In this document: positions 7,844 through 50,543 of the stretch, piece by piece | Position numbering within the stretch: the first letter of the stretch is position 1 | How the letters are laid out: each line of letters opens with the position of its first letter | Source: Micromonospora luteifusca | Lineage (GTDB): Bacteria; Actinomycetota; Actinomycetes; Mycobacteriales; Micromonosporaceae | Assembly: GCF_016907275.1 (NCBI RefSeq) | Contig: NZ_JAFBBP010000001.1 | Coordinates: 6,996,001-7,060,000 of the forward strand | Direction of reading: 5' to 3' | DNA: 64,000 nt | Notes under the pieces: generated by a model | What the model was told of the DNA's origin: nothing | Databases searched by the model: none | What the model saw: the letters and a program-made list of their open reading frames with translations, nothing else | Made by a program: the position numbers and the translations under genes

Positions 7844-7920
7844 GGGGGCACTCCCGGGGCGAGGTCGACGTGTCGGCCTCCCCCTCTGTCACACCCCGCA
7901 GGAGTGCTCCACAGTGCCTG

Positions 7921-8011
7921 CCCACGAGGTCCTTTTGCCTGAGAGGTTCCGGGGAGGATTTGCCCCTTCGGCGCCGCCCTGCGTGCTGTCGGGCGGTCTC
8001 TCCCACGTGGG
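7921..8011 (-). promoter_or_regulatory. Glycine riboswitch (single aptamer) upstream of gcvP
   Basis: Read on the minus strand the leader shows the conserved glycine-aptamer core in order: GGGAGAGACC, then CGCCGAAGGGGCAAA, then CTCTCAGGCAAAAGGACC. The ends pair as CCCACG/CGTGGG (8011-8006 with 7926-7921), giving the P1 stem. Only one aptamer is seen; there is no second copy before or after it. It lies 78 bases upstream of gcvP. By family knowledge a gene for glycine breakdown downstream implies an ON switch. Confidence 0.93.
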
Positions 8012-8102
8012 TGTTACCGGCATGGTCAACGCTACCAGCGCCGGTGTTTCCGGCAGATGTCCCACCCAGGGGCCGAGCCCACCGCGCTGCGCGCCTGCGC
8101 CG

Positions 8103-33451: not shown

Positions 33452-33547
33452 TGGCGGAGACGGACGGGAATCGAACCCGCCTGGCCCGGGTCCCGGACCA
33501 CTCCGGTTTTGAAGACCGGGAGGGGCACCAGCCTCCTGAACGCCTCC
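33452..33547 (-). tRNA. selC: tRNA-Sec (anticodon UCA)
   Basis: 96 nucleotides including an encoded CCA (33454-33452). The anticodon stem CCGGT/ACCGG encloses the loop CTTCAAA with anticodon TCA at 33512-33510. It has the hallmarks of a bacterial Sec tRNA: a long variable arm of eight pairs (TGGTCCGG with CCGGGCCA, one G-U), a long D stem, and a T arm with TTCGATT. The acceptor strand GGAGGCGT pairs with CCGTCTCC except for the eighth pair (U opposite C) and one G-U. It lies 22 bases before selA. Confidence 0.95.
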
Positions 33548-34749: not shown

Positions 34750-35675
34750 GAGGAACCTCCGACGAACGCGGCGACGGTCGCCGCCGCCATGGCCAGCGCG
34801 GCGAGGCCAGCGCGTTTCCACATCTTCGGCAGGTCGCGGGTGGTCACGACCGGGTCGGGTGGCAGCCCGTACACCTCGGGCTCGTCGAGGAGCAGGAAGA
34901 ACGCGCCGTCCCCGCCCACCCCGTCGGCCGGGTCATGACCGTACAGGCGCGCCTCGGGGACCCCCCGCTCGTGCAGCGTCCCGACCCGCGCGGCGGCCCG
35001 CTCCCGCAACTCGTCCAGCGGCCCGTACTGGATCGACTCGGTGGGACACGCCTGGGCACAGGCCGGGGTCATGCCCGCACCCAACCGGTCATAGCAGAGG
35101 GTGCACTTCCACGCCCTGCCGTCGTCCTTGCGTTGATCGATCACGCCGTAGGGGCAGGCGGAGATGCAGTAGCCGCAGCCGTTGCAGATGTCCTCCTGGA
35201 CCACCACCGTGCCGAACTCGGTGCGGAACAGCGAACCCGTCGGGCAGACGTCCAGGCAGGCCGCATGGGTGCAGTGCTTGCACACGTCGGACATCATCAG
35301 CCAGCGGAAGTCCGTACGACCCTGCGCACCGGACCCCCGCCCCGGCGGCTGCGACCCCGGCATCCCGAGGAACTGCGGACCCGCGCCGGTGGCGACCGGC
35401 TCACCCAGCACGTCGGCCGGGCGGGGTTGCTCGACGAACGCGACGTGCCGCCACGAGTTCGCGGTCAACGCCCCGGTGTTGTCGTACGACATCCCGAGCA
35501 GGTCGAGCCCGTTCTCCGGGACGCCGTTCCACTCCTTGCAGGCGACCTCACAGGCTTTGCAGCCGATGCAGACGCTGGTGTCGGTGAAGAACCCCATCCT
35601 CGGTGGCGCGTCCTCGTAGCCCGCTTCCGGCGCCGGATCGAGCGGCCCGTACAGGCTGTTCGGGTCAGGAAGCAC
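34746..35675 (-). CDS. fdhB: Formate dehydrogenase iron-sulfur subunit
   Basis: A 309-residue electron-transfer protein with four [4Fe-4S] cluster motifs: CIGCKACEVAC, CKHCTHAACLDVCP, CNGCGYCISACP and a CTLC...CAQACP set. This is the FdnH/HybA-type ferredoxin subunit that links the catalytic subunit to the membrane anchor. A hydrophobic C-terminal helix (AGLAALAMAAATVAAFVG) may tether it to the membrane. The GTG at 35675 has AAAGGAG four bases upstream; it overlaps the end of fdhA by 11 bases. Confidence 0.93.
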   Translation of the reverse strand: MLPDPNSLYGPLDPAPEAGYEDAPPRMGFFTDTSVCIGCKACEVACKEWNGVPENGLDLLGMSYDNTGALTANSWRHVAFVEQPRPADVLGEPVATGAGPQFLGMPGSQPPGRGSGAQGRTDFRWLMMSDVCKHCTHAACLDVCPTGSLFRTEFGTVVVQEDICNGCGYCISACPYGVIDQRKDDGRAWKCTLCYDRLGAGMTPACAQACPTESIQYGPLDELRERAAARVGTLHERGVPEARLYGHDPADGVGGDGAFFLLLDEPEVYGLPPDPVVTTRDLPKMWKRAGLAALAMAAATVAAFVGGSS

Positions 35676-38600
35676 CGCGCTCCTTTCCCGCGCTGTCGGT
35701 GGTGACCGCCGGAGCGTTCTGACCCGGGACGATCCCGGCACGCCGCTGATAACCGGCGACCAGATCGAGCAGGTCGGTTCCCCTCGGCCGCCGGCCCGCT
35801 CGGATGTCACAGGTGCCGACCTTGCTCTCCTGGATCAGCACGTTCGGGTCGAGGCTGATCCCGAACAGGTCGTTGGCCGAGTCACCGGTCACCAAACCCT
35901 CGAAACCAAAGTGGTACGGCAACCACACCTGGTGGATAACCCGGCCGTCGACCCGCAGCGGAGTGAGCCGATCCGTCACCAACACCTTCGCCTCGATCGC
36001 CGCCCGGGCGGTGACCAGATGAGCCCAGCCCAGGTGGTCGAGGCCGCGTTCGACCGCCAACTCCGGCGACACCTCGACGAACATCTCCGGTTGCAACTCC
36101 GCCAACGGGCTCACCGTTCGGCTCATCCCACCGGCCGTGTGATGCTCGGTGAGCCGGCTGACCGTGAACACGTACGGGAACACCTGGCTGTGCTCCTCCG
36201 GCGGGCTCGGGTTCACCGAGTTCACCGGATGCGCGTACATCTTGCGAGTCGGGTTGGCCTGCTGGCCGTAGAACGGGTTACGCACCGGCGACTCGACCGG
36301 CTCGTAGTGGGTGGGCAACGGGCCGTCCAGGACACCGCTGGGCGCGTACAGCCAGCCCTTGCCGTCGCCCTGCATGACGAACGGATCATCGCCGGCGATG
36401 CCCTCCGTCCCCGAGACGCCAGGTGGCGGTCGGTACGACGGCGGCTTGGTCTTCTCGAAGTCCGGCACGTCGTAGCCGGTCCACTCGGCCTTCTCCGCGT
36501 CCCACCAGACGTAGCGCTTGCGCTCACTCCACGGATTGCCGTCCGGGTCCGCGGAGGCACGGTTGTAGAGGATCCGCCGGTTCGCCGGCCAGGCCCAACC
36601 CCACTCGGCGGCCACCCAGTCCTGCTCGTGTCGGGACTTGCGCCGAGCGGCCTGGTTCACACCGTCCGCGTACACCCCGGTGTAGATCCAGCAGCCGATC
36701 GCGGTGGAGCCGTCCGCGCGGGCCTCGGCGAAGCTGGACAGCGGGCGGCCGCTCGCCACGTCGTACCCGTTGATCTCACGCAGCACCGACTCGGCGCTCG
36801 GCTCCGCGTTCGGACCGTGCGTGGGGTAGTCCCAGGTCAGGTCGAGCAGCGCCCGGTCGCGCGGCAGCTTCGAGTCGGCCAGCTTCTCCCGCAGTTTGCG
36901 GCCCAGGTGGTAGAAGAACCACAGCTCGGAACGGGCGTCGCCCGGTGGCTCGACGGCCTTCTCCCGCCACTGCAACAGACGCTGCGTCTGGGTGAACGTG
37001 CCCTCCTTCTCCACATGGGAGGCGGCGGGCAGGAAGAACACCTCGGTGCGGCACTCCTCCGGCACGATCTCACCGGTGGTCACCTCCGGGCCGTTCTGCC
37101 AGAAGGTCGCACTCTCGATCATGAAGAGGTCCCGGACCACCAACCAGTCGAGGTTGGCCATGCCGAGCCGCTGCGCCCGACCATGCGCCGACCCGACCGC
37201 CGGGTTCTGGCCCAGCAGGAAGTACCCCTTGATCTTCCCGTCGATCATGTTCAGCACCTGCTGATAGGTGCCGTGATCACCGGTCAGCCGGGGTAGGTAG
37301 CCGTAGCAGTAGTCGTTCTCCGGGGTCGCCGCGTCACCCCAGTACGCCTTGAGCAGGCTGGCGGCGAACGACCGCGCGTTGCCCCAGAACCCCTTCTGCC
37401 CCGGGTGCCGGATGCTGTCCACCCACTCGTCGAAGCTCGGGTGATCGGCGTGGTGCGGCATCGGCAGATAGCCGGGCAGCAGGTTGAACAGCGTCGGAAT
37501 GTCCGTCGAGCCCTGGATGCTGGCGTGCCCGCGCAACGCCATGATGCCGCCACCCGGCCGACCCATGTTGCCCAGCAACAGCTGAATGATCGCCCCGGTT
37601 CGGATGTACTGCACACCCACACTGTGCTGCGTCCAACCGACCGAGTAGATCAGCATTCCGGTGCGTTCCCGGCCCGAGTTCTCCGTCCACGCCCGCGCCA
37701 ACTCCAGGAACTTCTCCTGCGGGATACCGCAGACCCGTTCCACCATCTCCGGGGTGTAGCGGGAAAAGTGTCGCTTGAGGATCTGGTAGACGCACCGCGG
37801 ATGCTGCAACGTCTCGTCACGCTGGGTCTGCCCGCCCACCGGAGCGCCGTGCGACTCGTGCGTCAACCCTGCGGCGCTGTCCCGCTCCTGGGCGGTGTGC
37901 CCGCTGCCCGACGAGCCCTCGTGCCCCTCGTACTGCCAGCTGTCCTGCACGTAGGTGCCGGTCTCCGGGTCGAACCCGGAGAAGAAGCCGTCGCCGTCCT
38001 CGGTGTCGCTGAACTCCGCACTGACGATCGTCGCCGCGTTGGTGTACGACAACACGTACTCCCGGAAGTCCAACTCGTTGTCCAGGATGTAGCGCACCAC
38101 CCCACCGAGCAGCGCGATGTCCGTGCCCGCCCGGATCGACAGGAACGAGTCGGCCAGGGCGCTGGTCCGGGTGAACCGTGGGTCGACGTGGAAGACCTTC
38201 GCCCCGCGGCGCTTGGCCTCCATGACCCACTGGAAGCCCACCGGATGGGCCTCAGCCATGTTCGAACCCTGAATGACGATGACGTCAGCGTTGGCGATGT
38301 CCTGCTGGAAATCCGTCGCACCGCCACGACCGAAGCTGGCCCCCAGACCGGGGACGGTGGCGGAGTGTCAAATACGGGCCTGGTTCTCGATCTGAAGCGC
38401 CCCCATCGCGGTGAACAACTTCTTGATGAGGTAGTTCTCCTCGTTGTCCAGCGTCGCCCCACCCAGGCTGGAGAAACCCAGCGTCCGGTTGAGCGGCCGA
38501 CCCCGCGTGTCGACGTCCTCCCAGGTCTGCTCACGAGCCGCGAGCATCCGGTCGGCGATCATGTCGAGCGCGGTGTCGAGCTCCAGATCCTCCCACTGCG

Positions 38601-38937
38601 TCGAGTACGGACGGCGGTAACGGACCTTCGTCTGCCGCAGCGGACTCGTCACCAGACTCTTGCTCGCCGCGCCCTTCGGACACAGCCGACCCCGCGAGAT
38701 CGGGCTGTCCGGATCGCCCTCGATCTGACTGACCTGCCCGTCCTTGACGAACACCCGCTGACCACAACCCACCGCGCAGTACGGGCACACCGAACGGGCC
38801 ACACTGTCAGCGTCCTCGGTACGGGCCGTCAGCCCCGCCGAACGGGCCGACTTGGCCGCGACTCCCCGACCGAGCGGGTCAGTGCCGGTGAGCTGCCGGT
38901 AGACCGGCCAACCCTCAATGAAGGTACGCACACCCAT
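35665..38937 (-). CDS. fdhA: Formate dehydrogenase catalytic subunit, selenoprotein (Sec190)
   Basis: A 1090-residue molybdenum (or tungsten) bis-MGD enzyme oxidising formate to CO2. The frame has one TGA at 38370-38368, which reads as selenocysteine 190 in the context QARI-U-HSATVPGLGASF, the place where this family has its metal-ligating Sec or Cys. An N-terminal [4Fe-4S] motif is present (CPYCAVGCG...LCPKG). There is no twin-arginine signal, so the active site is likely cytoplasmic. The ATG at 38937 has GGGAGG upstream. The gene is not broken: the reading frame continues unchanged after the TGA for 900 conserved codons. Confidence 0.95.
38340..38370 (-). promoter_or_regulatory. Sec UGA codon with SECIS-like hairpin in fdhA
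   Basis: The UGA (38370-38368) is followed by a stem CCCC/GGGG (38353-38350 and 38344-38341) closing the loop GGUCU (38349-38345). The loop begins exactly 18 nucleotides after the UGA, with the same apical sequence GGUCU and the same distance as in the E. coli fdhF SECIS element. An outer stem CCGCCAC/GTGGCGG extends it. This is the element recognised by SelB. Confidence 0.88.
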
Positions 38938-39054: not shown

Positions 39055-39282
39055 GTGTCGGTGTGCAGGTCGCCTCTCGGCGAGTGGCGCGACGCGGCTC
39101 CAGCCGAACGGTATTCCGCGAAGGCAATATTAGGTGAGGCCCGGGGACACTGAGTCACACCGACACTGTCCACAACCAGCCCGACCCCCACGATGTTCCC
39201 GACCGGGGCTGCCCGGACACGTGCGCGGCCTGGGCACGGGCACAGCCCGGGGCGGCGCAGGCGCCGTGCGGGTGTGGGTATG

Positions 39283-39322
39283 CCGGTGGCCGGCACCCCG
39301 GGTTGGGGGTGCCGGCCACCGG
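39283..39322. terminator. Terminator hairpin after secreted transglycosylase-like gene 1
   Basis: A perfect 17-bp stem (39283-39299 with 39306-39322) with loop GGGTTG, 20 bases beyond the stop of the gene at 39342. No U-run follows, as is common in high-GC actinomycetes. A near-identical hairpin follows copy 2 at 49078-49113. Confidence 0.8.
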
Positions 39323-39341
39323 TCGGGTGTTCGTGTGGGGG

Positions 39342-39929
39342 TCAGCTGTTCCAGTGCTGGCCGACGAGGTCGGCGGCCTGCTGCTCCCACTGGGCGTACG
39401 CGTCCGGGTAAGCGGAGACCTGCACGGTCTGCGCGGCCTGGGTCAGGGGCATGTCCTGCCACCCGTCAACCTGCCGCAGACCCTTCAGGAACGCCGTCGT
39501 CGAGTAAGCCGGATCAGTGATCTGCTCCGGAGTACCCCAACCCGAACTCGGGCGCTGCTGGAACAGGCCCAGCGAGTCGTGGTCGTTCATGTCACCCAGG
39601 TGACCCAGGTTCTCCAACTTCGACTCCTGCAAGCTCGTCGCGATGGAGATGACCGCGGCCCGCTCCGGCAGACCGGCCTTCTTCGTGGCGGCGATGATCG
39701 CCTTCGCGTTGCCGACCTGCTCATCGTTCAGGGTGATGCGCGACTGATCACCCTGCGTGCCGTGCGGGATCAACTTGCTCATGTCGGGCTTGTCGGCCTG
39801 CACGGCCACGGCGACGGGCTTGGCATCCACAGCCGGGTTGGCGTGAGCGGCGATCGGACCGGCGAACACACCACCGGCGAACGCGAGACCAGCAACAGAC
39901 AGCACGCTCTTACGCATGATCGTGTTCAT
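39342..39929 (-). CDS. Secreted transglycosylase-like protein, copy 1
   Basis: A 195-residue exported protein. The signal peptide (about 1-30, RKSVLSVAGLAFAGGVFAG ending AAHA) is followed by a lysozyme/SLT-like domain (about 68-160) with IATSLQESKLENLGHLGDM, SLGLFQQRPSSGWG and a C-terminal YAQWEQQAADLV. E102 in the LQES motif is the candidate catalytic acid. Likely role: cleavage of peptidoglycan outside the cell. The ATG at 39929 has AAGGAG eight bases upstream. It is paralogous to 49141-49725 (one residue longer), and the surrounding DNA is duplicated too. Four tandem ECF-type promoter signatures precede it. Confidence 0.85.
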   Translation of the reverse strand: MNTIMRKSVLSVAGLAFAGGVFAGPIAAHANPAVDAKPVAVAVQADKPDMSKLIPHGTQGDQSRITLNDEQVGNAKAIIAATKKAGLPERAAVISIATSLQESKLENLGHLGDMNDHDSLGLFQQRPSSGWGTPEQITDPAYSTTAFLKGLRQVDGWQDMPLTQAAQTVQVSAYPDAYAQWEQQAADLVGQHWNS

Positions 39930-39970
39930 GGGGGTAGCTCCTTCGGGGGTAGGAACACCCACACACCCAT
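39926..39970 (-). CDS. Possible 14-residue leader peptide (copy 1)
   Basis: An ATG at 39970 opens the frame MGVWVFLPPKELPP; its stop TGA overlaps the ATG of the secreted protein gene (ATGA), and its KEL codons contain the AAGGAG ribosome site of that gene. The counterpart before copy 2 (49722-49766) is the same except Trp4 to Arg. No ribosome site precedes the ATG itself, so translation is uncertain; conservation may only reflect the recent duplication. Confidence 0.25.
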   Translation of the reverse strand: MGVWVFLPPKELPP

Positions 39971-40109
39971 AAGGGGAAAGGCGTGCCGGGTGCGAGCACC
40001 TCGTCCGGCGCTGCAACAAACAAGGGGAAAAGTCTTCAAAGGGGGTCGGCGCTGATGGCGCCGGGGGCGGCGGCCTACAAGCGGGGGGCTTGTCGCGCCG
40101 GGTCCATGT

Positions 40110-40383
40110 GTAACGACCGGGGGTCCGGGGTCATTCCCGGGCGGGTGGGCCACGAGCCGGGGGCTTGTGGCACCGGGTCTCTGTGTAACGACCCGAGGTC
40201 CGGGGTCATTCCGGGGGCGGCCCGTCCATCGGCACCGACTGGAGGTCGTGGCCGGGCGGTCGTTCGTGGGGACTGTAACGACCGGGCCGGGGCCGGCATT
40301 CCAACCCCGCGGCCAGCACCCCAACCCGCGGGTGGTGCTGCGATCGTCAGGGTATGTAACGACCCCGACCCGGCCATGATTCC
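40110..40383 (-). promoter_or_regulatory. Array of four tandem ECF (SigR/SigH-type) promoter signatures, copy 1
   Basis: Four sites on the minus strand have -35 GGAAT and -10 GTTAC separated by exactly 18 bases: 40383-40356, 40302-40275, 40212-40185 and 40137-40110. GGAAT-N18-GTT is the known consensus of the thiol-stress sigma factors SigR (Streptomyces) and SigH (mycobacteria). All four end in TCGTTACA. They are 75-90 bases apart and drive toward the gene at 39929. Short hairpins follow the two proximal sites. Whether all four are active cannot be seen; they could instead be repeated binding sites. Confidence 0.72.
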
Positions 40384-40706
40384 GGGCCAGAGATGCCACC
40401 GGTCACAGGCCAGAGAGCCCCAGACCGGGCAAATCACCCAGGAGTCAGGCCGGCTGGCACGAGACCACCGGACCCCACGGACATCGCAGACATGGCAGAC
40501 ATGGCAGCGTCCGCAGCGCTGAGACGACCCGATCTCTCCGGGGCCAGGTCGACCGTGGGGCGCGAGGGCTCGAGGGCGTAGGGCGCGGAGACGGGAGCGC
40601 GATCGCGGTTGGGCCGTGCGGAACGCGGGTCAAACCCGGCAAACCAAACCCGGCAAACCACGCTACAGAACCCACCACGCCGGGCGTTCTCGTCCTGACC
40701 GTAGGA
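40384..40706. other. Gene-free stretch upstream of promoter array 1
   Basis: The first 50 bases are still part of the sequence duplicated at 50192-50240. The rest has short direct repeats (CAGACATGG at 40488-40505, a CAAACCCGGCAAACC pair near 40630-40660) but no frame with a start, ribosome site and recognisable protein. I see no RNA gene in it. Confidence 0.4.
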
Positions 40707-40780
40707 GATCGACTCCATATCGCCGACATGGGGGTATCCGGGCGCAAGGACACCCCCATGTCGGCGATATGGAGTCGATC
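40707..40780. repeat. Perfect inverted repeat, 29-base arms, 16-base loop
   Basis: The left arm (40707-40735) starts GATCGACTCCATATCGCCG; the right arm (40752-40780) is its exact reverse complement. The loop is 40736-40751. Two degraded relatives with the same arm sequence lie at 50343-50420 and 50489-50543, so it belongs to a dispersed family rather than being a simple terminator. It lies 97 bases upstream of the alpha/beta hydrolase. Confidence 0.88.
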
Positions 40781-49065: not shown

Positions 49066-49077
49066 CGGGGGTACGCC

Positions 49078-49113
49078 GATGGCCGGCACCCCGGGTTGGG
49101 GGTGCCGGCCATC
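49078..49113. terminator. Bidirectional terminator hairpin between MFS gene and copy 2
   Basis: A perfect 15-bp stem (49078-49092 with 49099-49113) and loop GGGTTG, 12 bases after the MFS stop and 27 bases after the stop of the convergent gene. It is homologous to the hairpin at 39283-39322. Confidence 0.8.
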
Positions 49114-49140
49114 AGCAGTGTCGTTCGGGTGGTGCGGTGG

Positions 49141-49725
49141 TCAGCTGTTCCAGTGCTGGCCGACGAGGTCGGCGGCCTGCTGCTCCCACTGGGCGTAGGC
49201 GTCCGGGTAAGCGGAAACCTGCACGGTCTGCGCGGCCTGGGTCAGGGGCATGTCCTGCCACCCGTCGATCTGCCGCAGACCCTTGAGGAACGCGGTGGTG
49301 GAGTAGGCCGGGTCGGTGATCTGTTCCGGGGTGCCCCAACCCGAGCTGGGGCGCTGCTGGAACAGACCCAGCGAGTCGTGGTCGTTCATGTCGCCGAGGT
49401 GGCCCAGGTTCTCCAGCTTCGACTCCTGCAGGCTGGTGGCGATGGAGATCACCGCGGCGCGCTCCGGGAGACCGGCCTTCTTCGTGGCGGCGATGATCGC
49501 CTTCGCGTTGGCGGTCTGCTCGTCGTTGAGGGTGATGCGCGACTGATCGCCCTGGGTGCCGTGCGGGATCAGCTTGGCGGTGTCGGGCTTGTCGGCCTGC
49601 ACGGCGACGGCGACGGGCTTGGCATCGACCGGGTTGGCGTGAGCGGCGATCGGACCGGCGAACACACCACCGGCGAACGCGAGACCAGCAACGGACAGCA
49701 CACTCTTACGCATGATCGTGTTCAT
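49141..49725 (-). CDS. Secreted transglycosylase-like protein, copy 2
   Basis: A 194-residue exported protein nearly identical to the one at 39342. It differs by loss of one Ala after the signal peptide (ANPVDAKP) and by a few substitutions such as DTAKLIP for DMSKLIP and EQTANAK for EQVGNAK. The signal peptide, the lysozyme-like domain with SLQESKL (Glu candidate) and the DAYAQWEQQAAD end are unchanged, so it should be functional. The ATG at 49725 has the same AAGGAG. Its promoter region is duplicated with it. Confidence 0.85.
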   Translation of the reverse strand: MNTIMRKSVLSVAGLAFAGGVFAGPIAAHANPVDAKPVAVAVQADKPDTAKLIPHGTQGDQSRITLNDEQTANAKAIIAATKKAGLPERAAVISIATSLQESKLENLGHLGDMNDHDSLGLFQQRPSSGWGTPEQITDPAYSTTAFLKGLRQIDGWQDMPLTQAAQTVQVSAYPDAYAQWEQQAADLVGQHWNS

Positions 49726-49766
49726 GGGGGTAGCTCCTTCGGGGGTAGGAACACCCGCACACCCAT
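49722..49766 (-). CDS. Possible 14-residue leader peptide (copy 2)
   Basis: Counterpart of the leader at 39926-39970: MGVRVFLPPKELPP, with the stop overlapping the ATG of the secreted protein gene. No ribosome site precedes it. It is retained with one substitution, but the flanking duplicated DNA is similarly conserved. Confidence 0.25.
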   Translation of the reverse strand: MGVRVFLPPKELPP

Positions 49767-49909
49767 AAGGGGAAAGGCGTGCCGGGTGCGAGCACCTCGT
49801 CCGGCGCTGCAACAAACGCGGGGGAAAGTCTTCAAGGGGGTCGGCGCCTAGCTGATGGCGCCGGGATCGGCGACCTGCAAGCGGCGGGCTTGTGGCGCCG
49901 GGTCTGTGT

Positions 49910-50191
49910 GTAACGACCGGGGGTTCGGGGTCATTCCCGGGGGTGGGCCACGAGCCGGGGGCTTGTGGCGCCGGGTCTGTGTGTAACGACCCGAGGTCCG
50001 GGGTCATTCCGAGGGTTGCCCGCCCATCGGCACCCACTTGGAGGCGGCGGATGGGCGGTCGTTCGTGGGGACTGCAACGACCGCACGGGGGCCGGCATTC
50101 CAACCCCGCGGCCAGCACCCCAAACCACGGGGCCAGCCGGCGGTGCTGCGATCGTCAGGGTATGTAACGACCCCGACCCGGCCATGATTCC
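49910..50191 (-). promoter_or_regulatory. Array of four tandem ECF (SigR/SigH-type) promoter signatures, copy 2
   Basis: Four minus-strand sites with -35 GGAAT and -10 GTT at exactly 18 bases: 50191-50164, 50101-50074, 50010-49983 and 49937-49910. Three have GTTAC; the one at 50101-50074 has GTTGC, keeping the GTT core. Spacer sequences have diverged from array 1 while the -35, -10 and spacing have not. They point to the gene at 49725. Confidence 0.72.
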
Positions 50192-50342
50192 GGGCCAGAG
50201 ATGCCACCGGTCACAGGCCAGAGAGCCCCAGACCGGACAAAGCGCCCACGTCCGCGACGGGCTCGGCCAGGCCCGACATCCCTAGACCGGACAGACCACC
50301 CAGTGTGCGACATACGTAGGCCTCGCATGGCCTGCCACCCGC

Positions 50343-50420
50343 ATGATCCACTCCAGATCGCCGACATTGCGGTATCCGGGCCGGATAACACCCCAACTTC
50401 GGCGAAGTTGTGTCGATCAT
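50343..50420. repeat. Degraded relative of the 40707-40780 stem-loop
   Basis: The left part (50345-50382) matches the left arm and loop of 40707-40744 with about five mismatches, including ATCGCCGACAT and GGTATCCGGG. The outer ends still pair (ATGATC/GATCAT). The right arm has been replaced by a small hairpin CAACTTC-GGC-GAAGTTG (50394-50410). Confidence 0.65.
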
Positions 50421-50488: not shown

Positions 50489-50543
50489 CATTGCGGTATC
50501 CGCGGCACGGGAAACCGCAACATCGCCGACCTGGAGTCGATCA
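50489..50543. repeat. Second degraded stem-loop relative
   Basis: Contains ATTGCGGTATCCG (loop side) and then ACCGCAACATCGCCGACC and TGGAGTCGATCA, matching the loop and right arm of the stem-loop family. The left arm is shortened to GCGGT, which pairs with ACCGC. Confidence 0.55.

Follow-up and report, generated by a model that had tools for sequence, protein, structure and literature searches.

What are four copies of one promoter-like motif doing in a row ahead of a single gene? The question is raised by a 64,000-nucleotide stretch of the Micromonospora luteifusca genome (the window), whose minus strand contains exact GGAAT-N18-GTTAC at 40110-40137, 40185-40212, 40275-40302 and 40356-40383. 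The start-to-start steps are 75, 90 and 81, and all four sites point toward the gene at 39342-39929 on the same strand. Judging from sequence, we consider it likely that SigR, the thiol-oxidative stress sigma factor, uses all four motifs as tandem promoters to drive a secreted muramidase, and their repetition would be expected to raise output.

The array and the gene it faces

The motif is absent from 100 dinucleotide-shuffled versions of the window (mean and maximum both 0). Motif search and shuffles thereby confirm the preliminary description, which had reported four such sites with an 18-base spacer, spaced in steps of 75-90 and facing the gene that starts at 39929. The features of this locus and of a second locus in the window are:

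40356..40383, minus strand: predicted SigR-type promoter, class A, distal; 428 nt upstream of the ATG
40275..40302, minus strand: predicted SigR-type promoter, class B, middle; 347 nt upstream of the ATG
40185..40212, minus strand: predicted SigR-type promoter, class C, second copy; 257 nt upstream of the ATG
40110..40137, minus strand: predicted SigR-type promoter, class C, proximal; -35 at the high end, GTT end 182 nt upstream of the ATG
39930..40109, minus strand: leader between the proximal promoter and the start codon; folds better than shuffles (z -2.71), weak covariation
39342..39929, minus strand: gene of a secreted muramidase-like protein, 195 aa, faced by the array; signal peptide at about residues 1-30
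50164..50191, minus strand: predicted SigR-type promoter, class A, distal, second locus; exact match
50074..50101, minus strand: predicted SigR-type promoter, class B, second locus; GTTGC variant
49983..50010, minus strand: predicted SigR-type promoter, class C, second copy, second locus; exact match
49910..49937, minus strand: predicted SigR-type promoter, class C, proximal, second locus; exact match
49141..49725, minus strand: second muramidase paralog, an ORF 97% identical to the window gene

The second class C copy at 40185..40212 is a direct repeat of the proximal unit, with 81% identity over 75 nt. The gene start at 39929 is plausible, GAAGGAG being found ahead of the ATG. The encoded protein matches the muramidases 8B2E/8B2H, which we take to be members of family GH184, in sequence and fold over the catalytic core (mean pLDDT of the model only 60), and the acidic residues E102 and D116/D118 are conserved in 19/19 aligned proteins. 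The earlier suggestion of a secreted wall enzyme is supported by the signal peptide and the muramidase match, the activity itself being predicted. Compared with the fungal 8B2E/8B2H, the Micromonospora protein is a bacterial, predicted enzyme with about 30% identity and without the SH3-like domain.

Leaders of different length follow from the site map, as had been proposed, but the accompanying idea of a separate hairpin for each start is weakly supported by folding and covariation. The proximal leaders of five muramidase paralogs fold better than shuffles (z -2.6 to -4.9). RNAalifold predicts 0 consensus pairs for 41 mixed proximal leaders, chosen from 65 distinct ones (plus the window), and a chosen subset of 33 leaders displays a 5-pair stem, 93.3% paired, with one covarying pair. 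Rfam searches at gathering thresholds return no riboswitch or other family at the array. Since the covariation is weak, we do not claim a regulatory hairpin.

Two further features of the window lie elsewhere. A selenocysteine tRNA (33456-33547) is found near two adjacent frames at 35665-38937, which read like a single putative formate dehydrogenase interrupted by a stop, the pattern that a selenocysteine codon would produce. A glycine riboswitch aptamer is present at 7917-8015.

Arrays in the genome and in relatives

The two window loci belong to a duplicated unit of ~1.2 kb (39276-40440 and 49069-50248) with 90% DNA identity. The whole 7.16 Mb genome contains 24 exact GGAAT-N18-GTTAC matches and 0 matches to the reversed-pattern control. 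Admitting spacers of 8-32 yields 51 matches: 24 at 18, 6 at 19, 5 at 23 (four of these five are one identical sequence) and at most 3 at any other length. Almost all of the exact matches (22/24) fall in six arrays, five located ahead of five muramidase genes with 97-98% identity and one, a pair, ahead of a C39 peptidase gene. We scanned the paralogs of this genome with a wider site definition (GGAA[T/C/A], spacer 17-19, GTT); one of the 12 matches to the muramidase query (L035) gave no entry, and L036, a C39 signal region, was omitted. By this definition the five near-identical muramidase genes carry 4, 3, 6, 5 and 4 sites, and the five C39 genes with arrays carry 4, 3, 3, 4 and 2. A sixth C39 gene has no such site, and neither do four of five distant muramidase paralogs scanned, the remaining one having a single site; the absence of the array from these one plus four genes counts against the SigR-array model.

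Arrays of this genome follow the same order, with class A distal, then B, then one to four copies of C. Their spacings range from 59 to 111 (median 81, n=28 spacings), which leaves space for polymerases side by side. The preliminary description had the promoter type right and overlooked the scale: the tandem copies are real and conserved copy by copy, but they are not confined to one gene, five muramidase paralogs having arrays here. Likewise, the exact 18-base rule holds at the four window sites, but the wider set admits spacer 19, GGAAC, GTTGC and GTTAT.

Just past the distal promoter of the window array lies a 33-nt inverted repeat (40707-40780, 97% complementary, 8-nt loop). Its end, TGGAGTCGATCA, is found again near the second array, at 50344-50355 and 50532-50543, and a similar form also occurs ahead of C39 arrays.

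Elsewhere in the genome, site 6609202, about 40 nt ahead of an open frame, may be a real single target, and site 3736347, overlapping the 5' end of an opposite-strand gene, is probably due to chance. Two recurrent N19 sites were not counted as extra SigR targets: 3789327 overlaps the start codon of a gene, and 7101330 sits inside a long reverse-strand frame. A single conserved site (GGAATCGACCGACGGTGGCACTGGTTAC and variants; L055, L060 and similar matches in the genus) precedes a major-facilitator-like transporter gene, which makes this gene a possible further SigR target.

The motif is widespread in related genomes. Sixty genomes of the same genus contain 753 matches versus 23 for the reversed control, with 2 to 29 per genome, and at the family level a match is present in 127/150 genomes, mostly a few in each. 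For the muramidase locus we analyzed the best 80 of 421 relatives (79 Micromonospora, 1 Micromonosporaceae), keeping 74 of 82 upstream regions, window included, and leaving out 8 shorter than 600 nt. Spacer 18 is found in 125 exact sites of these 74 regions, spacer 17 in one and spacer 19 in two; all 125 N18 sites face the gene, and reversed orientation is encountered in none of the exact sites. The forward strand displays 125 exact, 35 one-mismatch and 50 two-mismatch sites, the reverse strand 1 one-mismatch and 6 two-mismatch sites. When GTTAC is required, 15/74 regions have no site; with spacer 17-19 and GTT[AG], 0/72 relatives are without one and 68/72 have at least two. The logo of 158 distinct sites reads GGAAT-N14-GGTCGTT(A/G)CA.

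Because a motif search returns what it asks for, conservation of each class was assessed by anchoring on the sequence downstream of it and then scoring eight core bases. Among the relatives, the core is intact in 39/41 anchored copies of class A, in 36/45 of class B, and in 43/49 and 45/49 for two class C anchors, compared with 50/1440 at random positions. Distal, middle and proximal copies differ from one another, and conservation extends to every one of them. Beyond the genus, we surveyed eight genomes chosen for high match counts and read the loci of seven. In genera g59, g63 and g64 we find tandem sites ahead of muramidase genes, and in g42 ahead of a C39 gene; a muramidase gene in g47 has a single site. 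Four g59 genomes contain 20 site pairs among the matches listed, each 85 bases apart.

These patterns bear on the possibility that the sites are SigR promoters of which a single copy, probably the proximal, is of consequence, the others having arisen as by-products when the region was duplicated locally. Such an origin would agree with the direct repetition of class C copies, with their varying number (1 to 4) among near-identical paralogs and with the recent duplication of the loci. It does not account for the intact A and B cores across species, for the retention of two or more sites in nearly all relatives, or for the several sites also kept by C39 genes and in other genera, and we regard it as unlikely.

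Probable assignment to SigR

The SigR-RsrA regulon is known in Streptomyces, and its mycobacterial counterpart is SigH. In Streptomyces, SigR targets include sigR itself, rbpA, and thioredoxin and primary-type sigma genes. The M. luteifusca genome encodes a SigR (TIGR02947, 351.9 bits) with RsrA adjoining it (TIGR03988, 106.3 bits), and one SigR above the cut-off is found in 41/41 genomes of the genus. Exactly one upstream GGAAT-N18/19-GTT is present in 30/30 Micromonospora sigR loci scanned, with spacer 19 in 26/30 and 18 in 4/30. Both sigR and rbpA of M. luteifusca (RbpA called by PF13397) carry GGAAT-N19-GTTACA, and the g59 sigR genes carry GGAAT-N18-GTTAC at two loci. GGAAT-N18-GTT also precedes a thioredoxin gene and a gene for a primary-type sigma factor, the agreement there extending to GTT only. 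The likeness to Streptomyces includes the GGAAT-N18/19-GTT motif, RsrA beside sigR, a putatively autoregulated sigR, and rbpA, thioredoxin and primary-type sigma genes among the carriers.

The array sites have the same SigR-promoter signature (GGAAT, spacer 18-19, GTT, facing the gene), and spacers 18 and 19 both occur in arrays, as they do at sigR. The preliminary assignment to the SigR/SigH type is strongly supported by this common -35, spacer and -10 at sigR and rbpA. Counting against SigR, the array sites mostly have spacer 18 and the sigR sites mostly 19. Muramidase-array sites also keep GGTC before GTT and CA after it more strongly than sigR sites do, which may reflect common ancestry or a further factor.

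This additional conservation, together with the fact that GGAA-type -35 boxes are common among ECF sigma factors, would suit promoters of another ECF factor with overlapping specificity, the inducing signal being other than thiol stress. We find this improbable, as a scan of 30 sigma loci for a sense-strand site with C or G before GTT reveals the signature at sigR only; the scan covers genes found with TIGR02947, counts one gene twice, and takes in a shorter stretch of promoter at loci matched in their 3' half only. One other sigma locus has GGAAC with CGTC. It is very improbable that the sites are operators of a dimeric regulator and not promoters: class C sites have an imperfect inverted symmetry (GGAATGACC/GGTCGTTAC, 7/9), which an operator could explain, and there is some helical phasing (R 0.34, p about 0.04 in this genome; p 1.5e-9 in relatives, though these are related sequences whose spacings are inherited together), but the aligned elements show no such symmetry in classes A and B or in C39 sites, every exact site keeps the order GGAAT then GTTAC, the spacer may be 18 or 19, and a single copy of the same site stands ahead of sigR and rbpA.

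Two enzyme families with a shared front end

The second array-bearing family is Peptidase_C39_2 (PF13529, 82.9 bits versus a cut-off of 24), for which we know of no association with SigR promoter arrays. A muramidase query matches a C39 gene over residues 4-48 only (55%, E 9.8e-5), and a C39 query picks up all five muramidases through their signal regions (48-53%, E 9e-5 to 1.4e-4), its only other matches being the six C39 genes. At the DNA level, with z-scores from mononucleotide shuffles, which flatter them, the signal region of the window gene aligns with that of one C39 gene over ~112 nt (z 18.1) and with that of a second over 60 nt (z 8.0); the arrays align weakly (z 5.9), and no alignment is found between the leaders (z -1.6) or coding bodies (z 1.1). 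As judged by these comparisons, two unrelated enzyme families have the same array type and related signal-peptide DNA. One ancestral module behind both front ends is plausible; convergence could also produce the likeness. An RWLPA extension is observed in both families in g59, and RWLPA near the N-terminus is common to proteins of the two families from several genera and to a distant M. luteifusca paralog (L271, L272, L275, L278, L289).

If the arrays are tandem SigR promoters, thiol-oxidative stress would cause RsrA to release SigR, and the SigR polymerase could initiate transcription at each of the four, a few bases past GTT. The resulting nested transcripts would have leaders of roughly 175, 250, 340 and 420 nt and all encode one enzyme. 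Repeating the promoter would capture more of a scarce sigma factor and, with additive output, deliver more of an exported product that is required in large amounts. The genome appears to use the same arrangement at five muramidase and five C39-peptidase loci, and a copy number varying from 2 to 6 fits the putative dose amplification.

Known Streptomyces SigR targets have one site each and mostly act intracellularly, whereas the Micromonospora genes encode secreted, predicted wall-active enzymes with 2-6 sites each. Tandem promoters in general, such as those of rRNA operons, likewise place several starts ahead of one gene; here, by contrast, one ECF promoter type is repeated in up to six copies and in at least two gene families. 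The per-copy conservation, the variable copy number and the occurrence of the array type, with related signal-peptide DNA, in two unrelated enzyme families are, provisionally, new.

The arrangement suggests that an oxidative-stress regulator drives wall-cutting-type enzyme genes through promoter copy number acting as a volume knob. More tentatively, and with considerable doubt, the SigR array and signal-peptide stretch could form an expression-and-export cassette placed on two unrelated wall-degrading families, its copy number evolving as a rheostat and oxidative stress releasing a lytic mix in bulk. If the SigR reading is true, a textbook redox regulator would govern how wall-active enzymes are secreted in bulk by a large, antibiotic-producing genus. 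Natural ECF arrays of 2-6 copies on near-identical genes would make the relation between promoter number and output directly measurable, and oxidative or antibiotic stress would be linked with turnover of the wall, with self-lysis or with attacks on neighbours.
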